DNA of 32,332 bases from an uncultured Myxococcales bacterium (lineage in GTDB: Bacteria > Myxococcota_A > UBA9042 > DTJE01): assembly GCA_903847405.1 (NCBI GenBank), contig CAINDP010000263.1, positions 1 to 32,332 of the forward strand, given 5' to 3'. Positions 3,693 to 28,488 of this stretch are shown piece by piece (position 1 is the stretch's first letter; each line of letters opens with the position of its first letter). The position numbers and the translations under genes were made by a program. The notes beneath the pieces were generated by a model. It made no database searches, was not told the origin of the DNA, and was given only the letters and a program-made list of their open reading frames with translations.

Positions 3693-3709
3693 ACGTCACG
3701 TTGGAGTGC

Positions 3710-3782
3710 GCCCGAATCGACTCCGCCTCCGCCAGCGAGTTTCCCTTCTGGAAACCCGCCGGCTCCGTCTCCGTGTTCGGGC
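3710..3782. repeat. Palindromic dispersed element, copy A1
   Basis: A 73-bp element with ends GCCCGAA and TTCGGGC. It matches copy A2 at 72 of 73 positions. On the minus strand (the prkA transcript) the centre forms a 14-bp stem, GCCGGCGGGTTTCC against GGAAACTCGCTGGC with two G-U pairs and a 5-nt loop AGAAG. Between this and the 7-bp terminal stem lie purine-rich GGAG-containing arms. Confidence 0.88.
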
Positions 3783-3801
3783 GAGCTCAACCTTTCAATG
3801 C

Positions 3802-3873
3802 GCCCGAATCGACTCCGACTCCGCCAGCGAGTTTCCCTTCTGGAAACCCGCCGGCTCCGTCTCCGTGTTCGGG

Positions 3874-3874
<1 letters not shown>
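3802..3874. repeat. Palindromic dispersed element, copy A2
   Basis: The second 73-bp copy, 92 bp downstream in phase with A1 and separated from it by 19 bp. Its last base (3874) is also the third base of the prkA TAG stop, so the element abuts the end of the coding sequence exactly. It has the same ends, the same 14-bp central stem and a single substitution relative to A1. Confidence 0.88.
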
Positions 3875-5916
<2,042 letters not shown>

Positions 5917-19011: not shown

Positions 19012-19029
19012 CCAATCCTCATTGATCGG

Positions 19030-19099
19030 GCCCGAGGCGACTCCGGCTGCGGCGAGAGTTTCCTGCGGAAACCCGTCGCCTGCGCCTGCGTGCTCGGGC
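19030..19099. repeat. Palindromic dispersed element, copy B
   Basis: A 70-bp element with ends GCCCGAG and CTCGGGC and a central GTTTCC/GGAAAC hairpin. It sits between the divergent promoters of the glycosidase-like gene and murB. Its reverse complement matches copy C (inside the amidase gene) at nearly all positions, with one gap. It differs from A1/A2 mainly in the arms (GCAGGCGCAG in place of GGAGACGGAG). Confidence 0.88.
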
Positions 19100-19117
19100 G
19101 GCCCCGGACGAGGACGG

Positions 19118-24453: not shown

Positions 24454-26190
24454 ATGGGGTACGATTCGAAGCCGGTTCGTGCGCCCCGGTCGGCGGGCAG
24501 GCTGCTGAGGACCCTGGCGCGGATCGTGGAAAGCCCCGCGGGCGCGGCCCTGCTGGGGAAAACGCTGCTGGAAAGCGCCGGAATCCCCGCCTTCCGGGCG
24601 ACCCTGGCCGACGACCCGCCCTGGCCCCTGGCGTCCCCGCGGCGTGTCGATGCGCCGACGCCGGCGGGTGCCCCCCTGGCCGACCTGGCGCCCCTGGGGC
24701 CGCCCGAGCACGCAGGCGCAGGCGATGGGTTTCCAAAGGAAACTCTCGCCGCTGCCGGGGTGCCGTGGGCGACGTCCGCGGACTATGCGGCCGCGTACCG
24801 GGAGGGGCGTGCCGACCCCGAGGGCGTGGGCCGCGCGGTCCTGGAGGCGTGCGCGGCGTCCGAGCGTTCGACCCCGCCCCTGCGCGCCATCATCGCCCAG
24901 GATGCCGACGACCTGATGGCCCAGGCCCGGGCCAGCGCCCTTCGGTGGAAGGCGGGCAACCCCCTGGGCCCGCTGGACGGCGTGCCGGTGGCGATCAAGG
25001 ACGAACTGGACCTCACCCCCTACCCGACCACGGTGGGCACCGCGTTCCTGCACGACGTGCCGGCCGTGGATGCCACCGTCGTGTCCCGTTTGCGGGCCGC
25101 GGGCGCCCTGCTGATCGGCAAGGCCAACATGCACGAGATCGGCATCGGCGTGACGGGCGTGAACCCGCATCACGGCGCGGCCCGGAACCCCTACGACCCG
25201 CAGCGGGCCACGGGCGGTTCCTCCAGCGGGCCCGCGGCGGCGGTGGCCTCGGGGCTGTGCCCGATCGCCATCGGCGCGGACGGTGGCGGTTCGATCCGGC
25301 TGCCGTCGGCCCTGTGCGGCGTTGCGGGGCTGAAGCCCACCTTCGGCCGGGTCAGCGAGGCCGGTGCGGCGCCCCTGTGCTGGACCCTGGCCCACGTGGG
25401 GCCCCTGGGCGCGACGGTGCGGGACGTGGCGCTGGCCTACGGGGTGATCGCCGGTCCGGACCTGAAGGACCTGAACTCGATGCCCCAGCCGCGCCCCTCC
25501 CTGGAGGGGTTCGGGCAGTCCGACCTGCGGGGCGTGCGTGTCGGCGTGTACCGCCCCTGGTTCGAGGATGCGGACCCCGCGGTGGTCGCGTCGTGCCGAT
25601 CGTCGCTGGAAATCCTGGCGGCGGCGGGCGCCCGGATCTGCGAAATCGAGATCCCCGAACTGGTCCTGCTGCGGGCGGTGCACCTGGTGACCATCGTCAG
25701 CGAGATGGCCACGGCCCATGACCGGTACCAGGCCGAACACCGCAGGTACTACGGGGCCGACACGCGCGTGTCGCTGGCCCTGGCCCGGATGCTGACCGCC
25801 CGGGACTACATCCACGCCCAGCGCCTCCGGACGCGCCTGCTGCGGCACTTCGACAACGCCCTGGCCGAGGTCGACGTGATCGCCACGCCCACCTCGGCGT
25901 GCACGGCGCCGCTGATCCCCGCCGACGCCCTGGCCACCGGCGAGTCGAACCTCGAGGTCACCGCGCAGATCATGCGGTTCGCCCAGCCCGGGAACCTGAC
26001 CGGCCTGCCCGCGCTGACGGTTCCGGCAGGCTACGACGACGGCGGGATGCCCGTGGGCTTCCAGATGATGGGACGGGCCTGGGACGAGGCCCTTCTGCTG
26101 CGCCTGGGCCGCGTCATCGAAGCGTCCGTCGAGCGCCGCGCGCCCCGGGTCCGGTTCACGCCGCTGGCCGATGCCGGCAGCAGGGCGTAG
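24454..26190 (+). CDS. Amidase-signature enzyme with repeat-encoded insert in its N-terminal region
   Basis: This 578-residue protein belongs to the GatA/fatty-acid-amide-hydrolase superfamily. The Ser-cisSer-Lys triad is visible: Lys182 in VAIKDELD, Ser256 in TGGSSSGP, Ser280 in DGGGSIRLPSAL. The spacings of 74 and 24 match FAAH (75 and 24). The N-terminal 125 residues precede the conserved core and contain residues of about 83-105 encoded by palindromic element C (PPEHAGAGDGFP... to ...LAAAGV). There is no signal peptide. With no gatB or gatC nearby and an N-terminal helical extension, a stand-alone amide hydrolase is more likely than the tRNA amidotransferase; the substrate is unknown. The ATG at 24454 follows AGGGGGG. 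It ends 23 bp from convergent gerW. Confidence 0.92.
   Translation: MGYDSKPVRAPRSAGRLLRTLARIVESPAGAALLGKTLLESAGIPAFRATLADDPPWPLASPRRVDAPTPAGAPLADLAPLGPPEHAGAGDGFPKETLAAAGVPWATSADYAAAYREGRADPEGVGRAVLEACAASERSTPPLRAIIAQDADDLMAQARASALRWKAGNPLGPLDGVPVAIKDELDLTPYPTTVGTAFLHDVPAVDATVVSRLRAAGALLIGKANMHEIGIGVTGVNPHHGAARNPYDPQRATGGSSSGPAAAVASGLCPIAIGADGGGSIRLPSALCGVAGLKPTFGRVSEAGAAPLCWTLAHVGPLGATVRDVALAYGVIAGPDLKDLNSMPQPRPSLEGFGQSDLRGVRVGVYRPWFEDADPAVVASCRSSLEILAAAGARICEIEIPELVLLRAVHLVTIVSEMATAHDRYQAEHRRYYGADTRVSLALARMLTARDYIHAQRLRTRLLRHFDNALAEVDVIATPTSACTAPLIPADALATGESNLEVTAQIMRFAQPGNLTGLPALTVPAGYDDGGMPVGFQMMGRAWDEALLLRLGRVIEASVERRAPRVRFTPLADAGSRA
24702..24770. repeat. Palindromic dispersed element, copy C, inside the amidase CDS
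   Basis: A 69-bp copy starting GCCCGAGCACGCAGGCGCAG, with hairpin GGTTTCC-AAA-GGAAACT. It is about 90 percent identical to copy B in reverse orientation. The right end has decayed: CTCGGGC has become GTGGGC and one base is missing. It reads through in the amidase frame without a stop. Confidence 0.87.
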
Positions 26191-26738: not shown

Positions 26739-28403
26739 ATGTGCTCGATCCTGGGGATCCTGGACATCCGGTCCGACGTCGAGGCGTTGCGGCGCCGGGC
26801 GCTGGAACTGTCGCGGCTGCAGCGCCACCGCGGGCCCGACTGGTCCGGCATCTATGCGTCCGATCGCGCGATCCTGGCCCATGAGCGCCTGTCGATCGTG
26901 GACCCGGAAAGCGGGGCGCAGCCCCTGTACAACGCGGCCCGCACCCACGTCCTGGCCGTCAACGGCGAAATCTACAACCATCGGGAACTGGCCCGCGGCC
27001 TGACGTGCGGCTACCAGTTCCAGACGGCGTCGGACTGCGAAATCATCCTGGCCCTGTACCAGGAAAAGGGGCCGGACTTCCTGGACGATCTGAACGGGAT
27101 CTTCGCGTTCGTGCTGTACGACATCCAGCAGGATCGCTACGTGATCGGCCGGGACCACATGGGCATCTGCCCGCTGTACACCGGTCGCGACGCCGCCGGG
27201 AACCTGTATGTCGCGTCCGAACTGAAGGCCCTGGTGCCCGCCTGCGAGACCGTCGAGGAGTTCCCTCCGGGGCACGTTCTCGTAGGACCCCACGGCACTC
27301 CGACGCGCTGGTACCGGCGGGCCTGGGAGTCCTATGACGCGGTCGTCGGCGGGCCCACGGATCCCTCCGTCCTGCGGGAGGCCCTGACGGCCGCGGTGCA
27401 CCGCCAACTGATGTCGGACGTGCCGTACGGGGTGCTGCTGTCGGGCGGGCTGGACTCGTCGATCATCACGGCCGTCGCCAACCAGTTGGCGCCCCGACGC
27501 GTCGAGGACGACGATCGCAGCCCGGCGTGGTGGCCCCGCCTGCACTCCATTTCCATCGGGCTGGCGGGCGCCCCGGACCTGGCGGCGGCTCGCCTGGCCG
27601 CGGCGCACATCGGGACCGTCCACCACGAGTTCCACTTCACGGTCCAGGAAGGCCTGGACGCCATCCGGGACGTCATCCACCACATCGAGTCCTACGACGT
27701 CACGACGGTCCGGGCGTCGACGCCGATGTACCTGATGGCCCGGCGCATCAAGGCCATGGGCATCAAGATGGTGCTGTCGGGCGAGGGCGCCGACGAGATC
27801 TTCGGCGGGTACCTGTACTTCCACAAGGCGCCCGACGACCGGTCGTTCCACGAGGAAACCGTCCGCAAGCTGTCGCGGCTGCACTGGTACGACTGCCTGC
27901 GGGCCAACAAGTCGATGGCCGCCTGGGGCGTCGAGGCCCGTGTTCCCTTCCTGGACAAGGAGTTCATGGACGTCGCCATGGGCATGGATCCGTCGGTCAA
28001 GCGCCCCGGGAACGGCCGCATCGAAAAGCACGTCCTGCGGCAGGCGTTCGCGGACCTGCTGCCGCCCTCCATCGCGTGGCGCCAGAAGGAGCAGTTCAGC
28101 GACGGCGTCGGGTATGCCTGGATCGACTCGCTGAAGGCCTCGGCCGAGCGCGAGATCAGCGACCGGCAGTTGGCCGATGCGGCGACGCGGTTCCCCTTGA
28201 ACCCGCCCGCCACGAAGGAGGCCTACCTGTATCGCCGGATCTTCGAGGAGCACTTCCCCCTGTCGTCCGCGGCGGCCTGCGTACCCAGCGTTCCGTCGGT
28301 TGCGTGCAGCACGCCGGAGGCCCTGGCCTGGGACCCGGCCCTGCGGGCGGTCACCGATCCGTCGGGGCGCGCGGTCCTTTCGGTCCACAAGGACAGCTAT
28401 TAA
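26739..28403 (+). CDS. asnB: Glutamine-hydrolysing asparagine synthetase (class II)
   Basis: This 554-residue enzyme makes asparagine from aspartate, ATP and glutamine. The class II glutaminase domain starts with the nucleophile Cys2 (MCSILGI) and contains HRGPDWSGIY, LAHERLSIVD and NGEIYNHREL. The synthetase domain has the PP-loop LLSGGLDSS at about 234-241 and VLSGEGADEIFGGYLYFH, with RVPFLDKEF in its C-terminal half. Length and motifs match E. coli AsnB. The ATG at 26739 follows AAGGAGG at ideal spacing. The C-terminus after about residue 510 is variable in the family. The TAA stop, the only TAA seen here, is followed 4 bp later by palindromic element D. Confidence 0.96.
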   Translation: MCSILGILDIRSDVEALRRRALELSRLQRHRGPDWSGIYASDRAILAHERLSIVDPESGAQPLYNAARTHVLAVNGEIYNHRELARGLTCGYQFQTASDCEIILALYQEKGPDFLDDLNGIFAFVLYDIQQDRYVIGRDHMGICPLYTGRDAAGNLYVASELKALVPACETVEEFPPGHVLVGPHGTPTRWYRRAWESYDAVVGGPTDPSVLREALTAAVHRQLMSDVPYGVLLSGGLDSSIITAVANQLAPRRVEDDDRSPAWWPRLHSISIGLAGAPDLAAARLAAAHIGTVHHEFHFTVQEGLDAIRDVIHHIESYDVTTVRASTPMYLMARRIKAMGIKMVLSGEGADEIFGGYLYFHKAPDDRSFHEETVRKLSRLHWYDCLRANKSMAAWGVEARVPFLDKEFMDVAMGMDPSVKRPGNGRIEKHVLRQAFADLLPPSIAWRQKEQFSDGVGYAWIDSLKASAEREISDRQLADAATRFPLNPPATKEAYLYRRIFEEHFPLSSAAACVPSVPSVACSTPEALAWDPALRAVTDPSGRAVLSVHKDSY

Positions 28404-28407
28404 GGGC

Positions 28408-28467
28408 GCCCGAGGCGACTTCGTCTCCGGCGCGATTGGGACCGCGCCTCCGCCTGCGTGCTCGGGC
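28408..28467. repeat. Palindromic dispersed element, copy D (variant centre)
   Basis: A 60-bp element with GCCCGAGGCGACT at one end and GCCTGCGTGCTCGGGC at the other, as in copy B. The centre is different and shorter: GGCGCG-ATTGGGAC-CGCGCC, a 6-bp stem. It lies 4 bp after the asnB stop and 22 bp before the kup promoter. Confidence 0.75.
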
Positions 28468-28488
28468 GGGGGCAGGAGAGGGGTGGGG

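Follow-up and report, generated by a model that had tools for sequence, protein, structure and literature searches.

The window, by which we mean the whole stretch of 32,332 nucleotides that was analysed, is contig C263 of the 5.65-Mb source genome (G000) of an uncultured Myxococcales bacterium. The closest relatives compared are uncultured Myxococcales metagenome bins, including CAIOFV01 (G001); the genomes are metagenome-assembled, and misassembly of repeats is possible at single loci and unlikely for many. The window holds a gene for an amidase-signature enzyme of 578 amino acids, inside which lies one copy of a short palindromic element that recurs elsewhere in the window, as follows.

3703..3787, + strand: copy A1, from a divergent subfamily; it lies between a DUF444 gene and prkA as the first unit of a head-to-tail pair
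3795..3879, + strand: copy A2, second of the head-to-tail pair, abutting the prkA stop codon
11745-11816, - strand: tRNA gene (RF00005; Rfam)
19023..19104, + strand: copy B (repeat match), intergenic between divergent genes (a lipoprotein-like gene on the - strand and murB on the + strand)
24454..26190, + strand: gene for the amidase-signature enzyme (CDS 24454-26187; Pfam, phmmer and orthologue alignments)
24697..24778, - strand (the gene is on +): copy C, in frame within the amidase gene (nhmmer and covariance model)
28401..28472, + strand: copy D, a weak, divergent relative that shares the terminal arms (nhmmer, 28 bits; inverted repeat I3 with copy C)

The amidase coding sequence matches Pfam family PF01425 (Amidase; E 1.4e-104), and its closest solved relative by phmmer is the plant fatty acid amide hydrolase FAAH (6dhv, E 2.2e-119). 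The first-pass annotation had described copy C as about 90 percent identical to the intergenic copy B and as sitting in frame, without disruption, between the start and the catalytic core of the enzyme, and these points were borne out. Over 66 nt, positions 24696-24761 share 92% identity with 19040-19105 at copy B read as the reverse complement, 67 of 82 positions match across the full element, and in a genome-wide search the covariance model recognizes copy C as a family member (71 bits, E 3.4e-10), which excludes chance. The DNA hairpin of copy C has a folding energy of -28 kcal/mol (z -3.5), and the outer arm opposite its conserved end has diverged strongly. Copy C encodes approximately residues 82-105 of the amidase, reading G82-PPEHAGAGDGFPKETLAAAGV-103. 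Upstream, the start M-G-Y-D-S-K-P-V-R-A-P-R is conserved among orthologues, so translation does not begin downstream of the element. Downstream, all 25 aligned orthologues retain K182, S256-S258 and S280 unchanged, in keeping with the catalytic triad that the annotation described as intact.

The amidase is not the simplest place in which to see what the element does to a gene. The annotation expected orthologues to lack 20-25 residues at this position. Residues 89-99 are indeed absent from 69-70 of 70 orthologue N-termini, the exception being a single residue in one sequence, and the alignment found the insert motif in none of the 70, but the amidase has a net gain of 12 residues over its closest orthologue (G001, 83% identical). 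Across all orthologues both the length and the sequence of the linker are hypervariable, and the query linker is the longest of the set. Judged from these alignments, copy C is not a clean 84-nt addition and is the least clean of the cases. The most economical reading is insertion of the element together with loss of part of the old linker. The element seems to have taken the place of some of the ancestral linker or to have been cut back along with it. Persistence of a remnant of the insert in the closest orthologue is not favoured, since the 12-residue linker there resembles the 12-14 residues of distant relatives. The insert would make up the bulk of a disordered linker preceding the catalytic domain, and its effect on activity is probably near neutral, both activity and translation being predicted.

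The family to which copy C belongs has a unit of about 82-84 bp with sharp ends that forms an imperfect palindrome, TGGATCGTCCCGAGTCGGCTTCGGCTCCGGCGAGAGTTTCCTGCGGAAACCCATCGCCTGCGCCTGCGCGCTCGGGAGGAAC. Its arms are imperfect inverted repeats ending in CCCGAG and CTCGGG, and the loop carries the stem GTTTCC-N3-GGAAAC. The outer stem pair 8-77 covaries (TA/GC/CG/AT) and stem pair 18-69 alternates between GC (78 copies) and AT (25 copies), which indicates that the hairpin is maintained. The loop of copy D differs in having no GTTTCC/GGAAAC, which suggests that this copy represents a second subfamily. Rfam found only the tRNA in the window and no RNA family for the element. In alignment A1, stem variation falls at every third base (columns 15, 18, 21, 24 and 27, with 60, 66 and 69, in 82-nt ungapped coordinates), and the unpaired T/C flanking the variable columns stay invariant. 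On one and the same strand each arm has the form (CGN CTN)n, so that RLRLR is encoded twice, in a frame other than the one used in genes, and the every-third-base pattern is accounted for neither by base-pairing nor by the frames that genes do use. Several copies exactly abut the stop codon of the upstream gene (window 3877-3879 at copy A2; L215, L256 and L054).

In a census capped at 150 scored candidates per genome, covariance model R1 places at least 125 copies in G000 and at least 120 in G001, both of them lake myxobacteria, and 2 in G002, and the search found none in the other 49 of the 52 genomes of the class. By these searches, the family is restricted to a single Myxococcota genus among the 52 genomes. 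The core pattern of the element was absent from the viral contigs searched, and carriage by phage was rejected on that ground. Insertion sites differ between G000 and G001 at orthologous loci, and thus the family has moved since the two species split. One orthologous locus (L051/L257) has two mutually exclusive insertions about 500 bp apart, and one insertion site (L046/L262) is common to both species.

Most of the copies are intergenic, and a subset lies within genes. When the coding potential of the flanks only was scored, with the element ignored, 16 of the 141 inspected copies proved to be in frame inside genes, with an open frame and same-frame coding on both sides. The host genes identified by Pfam encode the amidase, DnaE2, TatD, an HlyD-like protein, YdjM-like and PMT-like membrane proteins, two radical SAM proteins, an APH-like kinase, a PLD-domain protein, transketolase, an Omp85/POTRA protein, a TgpA transglutaminase, RecD2 and RecC; the product of L188 had no Pfam match. 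The RecC gene of G001 (L255, C76:9643-9805) contains two tandem head-to-tail copies in frame, amounting to about 55 added residues. Four of the genes form clean pairs of filled and empty orthologues, each differing by 84 nt or 28 residues. DnaE2 has 28 additional residues in G000 that are absent from G001 (flanks 96% and 90% identical), and TatD has 84 additional nucleotides in G000 relative to the empty orthologue; conversely, the 28 residues in transketolase of G001 are absent from 11 relatives including G000, and those in RecD2 of G001 are absent from G000 and G002. With some 15 further genes, four of them forming these exact pairs, the Rickettsia-like behaviour postulated for copy C, a palindromic repeat in frame in a protein gene, extends beyond the amidase. 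Insertion is not restricted to the N-terminal linkers that the annotation proposed; in transketolase, RecD2, DnaE2 and TatD the insertions are mid-protein or mid-domain.

Where both flanks are coding on one strand, the frame is kept in 15 of 19 cases, among them L256, where a stop at the edge of the element means that the copy is not intragenic. The four frame-shifted cases (L054, L199, L215 and L236) were considered as broken genes and rejected, because on inspection they read as neighbouring genes or have a boundary between genes at the element; among the copies inspected, none that lies inside a gene breaks the frame. At L199, the element supplies a response regulator with a C-terminal tail in the Pro-Glu frame described below.

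How might a mobile palindrome come to be tolerated inside conserved genes? Some genic insertions probably survive purifying selection because the length of the unit is divisible by three and stops are rare in it. The annotation pointed to an open frame conserved in all copies. Half of the copies (50%) are open in all six frames, compared with about 27% of simulated sequences of the same composition and 15-17% of genomic 82-mers; openness in all frames is not exceptional for the composition and was rejected as a special property. The frame that is used is another matter of observation: in 14 of the 16 in-frame copies the terminal CCCGAG is read as Pro-Glu, in a single palindrome-symmetric frame and in either orientation (P 1.2e-5 against equal use, 1/3 each, of the three palindrome-related frames). 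The peptide is PPE(R/H)AGAGDGFPQETLAGA in one orientation (n=9) and RPESASAPARVSxGNPSPAP in the other (n=5). The remaining frames would yield peptides that are rich in Arg or more hydrophobic. Surviving insertions are probably confined, with few exceptions, to the frame whose product is a soluble peptide rich in Pro, Gly, Ala, Glu and Ser, PPERAGAGDGFPQETLAGA or its counterpart in the second orientation, and we infer that selection keeps those whose peptide is soluble and disordered. Survival would also be expected where the extra peptide is a flexible surface loop. In an AlphaFold2 model of the amidase (25 sequences; mean pLDDT 90.4) the sole segment under 50 is residues 86-98, which lie within the insert, and in the model of the G001 transketolase residues 151-180, covering most of the insert, fall below 50; low pLDDT is to be expected wherever the alignment offers no homologues and is weak evidence for a flexible loop.

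Two explanations would leave the protein untouched by a mobile element, and both fit the data poorly. The amidase segment might be an ancestral, fast-evolving, low-complexity linker that came to resemble the repeat by convergence, the repeat family being irrelevant to the protein. The hypervariability of the linker among all orthologues and the net gain of just 12 residues accord with such an origin, but convergence does not account for the nucleotide identity to copy B, the conserved loop and stem and the covariance model score, nor for a motif present in 0 of 70 orthologues and a peptide that recurs in unrelated proteins with clean empty sites. We regard convergence as refuted by the DNA-level family match and the other genes, and its residual probability as negligible. 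It is also conceivable that in-frame copies are removed from the mRNA or bypassed in translation, as a tiny intron, a bypass element or a mini-intein, such that the peptide never appears. A strong hairpin in the mRNA would suit this, and the idea is compatible with sequence alone, but there are no intein or intron hallmarks, Rfam finds nothing for the element and most copies are intergenic. Moreover, the intragenic copies are open in the frame used, and the bias towards a soluble peptide is sensible only if it is translated, which makes removal or bypass very improbable. Copy C is instead very probably one copy of a genus-specific, non-autonomous mobile palindrome, some members of which lie in frame in conserved genes; the dispersal of the family, its species-specific sites, the 84-nt gains and the preservation of frame are all observed directly.

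The element probably inserts as a folded single strand that is handled by some enzyme, leaving no evident target duplication; a hairpin that leaves no such duplication would be consistent with single-strand transposition. One possibility is that the element is a REP or REPIN of the GTAG/CGTC type moved by a RAYT (HUH tyrosine) transposase. The imperfect hairpin and the lack of an evident target duplication and of coding capacity all agree with such a route, as do the copies abutting stop codons and the preference for DNA repair genes, both reported for REPs (PMC3733652), the CGTC near one end of the main subfamily (columns 6-9) and the single Y1_Tnp gene of G000. That gene (L001, G000:C82:33545-36883), however, is flanked by its own, unrelated repeat, GTGGGACAGTCACCCTTTC / AAAGGGTGACTGTCCCAC, and on this sequence evidence appears to be a separate REP-like system, whereas G001, with some 120 copies or more, has no Y1_Tnp gene; a RAYT was accordingly rejected as mobiliser insofar as the only Y1_Tnp of G000 is concerned, and no mobilising enzyme was found in G000 or G001. 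In addition, the element is twice the length of a REP, older copies differ in the tag, and 17 of 17 close pairs are head-to-tail (spacing mostly 80-85 bp) rather than inverted. On balance, movement as a REP is doubtful. An alternative is that the family consists of classical MITEs, descended from a DDE insertion sequence that has since been lost or sits outside the assembled contigs. The imperfect terminal inverted repeats (CCCGAG...CTCGGG), the fixed length and the head-to-tail tandems are MITE-like, and the transketolase copy has ATGCT on both sides, the single candidate for a target duplication. Against this, no 2-9 nt k-mer was significant at any offset around 105 isolated copies, except for matches within the element's arms; the conserved internal stem extends beyond the termini, and no parental element was present in the sequences read. 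A MITE origin is possible, if rather unlikely.

Whichever enzyme moves it, the family behaves much like several known systems. Rickettsia (RPE) and Wolbachia palindromic elements are dispersed, non-autonomous hairpins that occur both in intergenic regions and in frame in conserved genes, to which they add a surface peptide (PMC2229807, PMC10969869, PMC3767692), and genes with RPE-1, -2 and -3 have elements at similar sites in rickettsial orthologues (PMC3767692). The new family is likewise palindromic, non-autonomous and multi-copy (at least 120), with a covarying stem, and is in frame in 16 genes with the frame kept and four clean 28-residue pairs; compared by description, it differs from the RPEs of Rickettsiales (105-146 bp; PMC2229807) in its length of 82-84 bp and its host, a free-living Myxococcota genus. 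Intragenic GTAG/CGTC REPs, for example in Opitutus terrae, Thauera and Xanthomonas, are in frame, supply 20-30 residues as dimers and favour DNA repair genes including recBCD and DnaE2 (PMC3733652). The family described here shares with them short in-frame palindromes, hits in DnaE2, RecD2 and RecC and copies at stop codons, but its 82-bp unit contrasts with their 20-40 bp, it appears to have no conserved GTAG tag and has CGTC in the main subfamily only, its neighbours are not mostly in opposite orientation, and it does not flank the Y1_Tnp gene as REPs flank a RAYT. An amidase gene and an HlyD gene both carry in-frame fusions to RU-1 elements (PMC2759123), a parallel to the amidase and HlyD-like genes found here. 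As described, RU-1 (ERIC), RU-2, RU-3 and the Neisseria Correia/NEMIS elements are MITE-like repeats whose open frames continue those of protein genes (PMC2759123), with terminal inverted repeats and target duplications in several; they are longer (103-168 bp; PMC2229807) and occur in unrelated hosts. The new family thus acts like RPEs and intragenic REPs yet is a separate family, set apart by these descriptions. As an example outside Rickettsia, copy C is not the novelty that the annotation suggested, since intragenic REPs, RU-1/ERIC and the Correia element came before it (PMC3733652, PMC2759123, PMC2229807); what is unusual here is how clean the filled and empty pairs are.

Two free-living sister species carry different insertion sets, and for every filled gene that was examined there is consequently a close orthologue without the insert. 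Transketolase, TatD, RecD2 and DnaE2 are therefore ready-made before-and-after pairs of enzymes for the effect of an inserted 28-residue peptide, and the strong frame bias directly shows which peptides selection tolerates. It is also conceivable, though we think it improbable, that protein-level selection has moulded the element itself, the 84-bp unit and symmetric frame making it a "translation-compatible" mobile element. If so, it would spread through coding sequence with little harm, adding a soluble, disordered peptide led by Pro-Glu in either orientation, and would constitute a standing source of new protein linkers.
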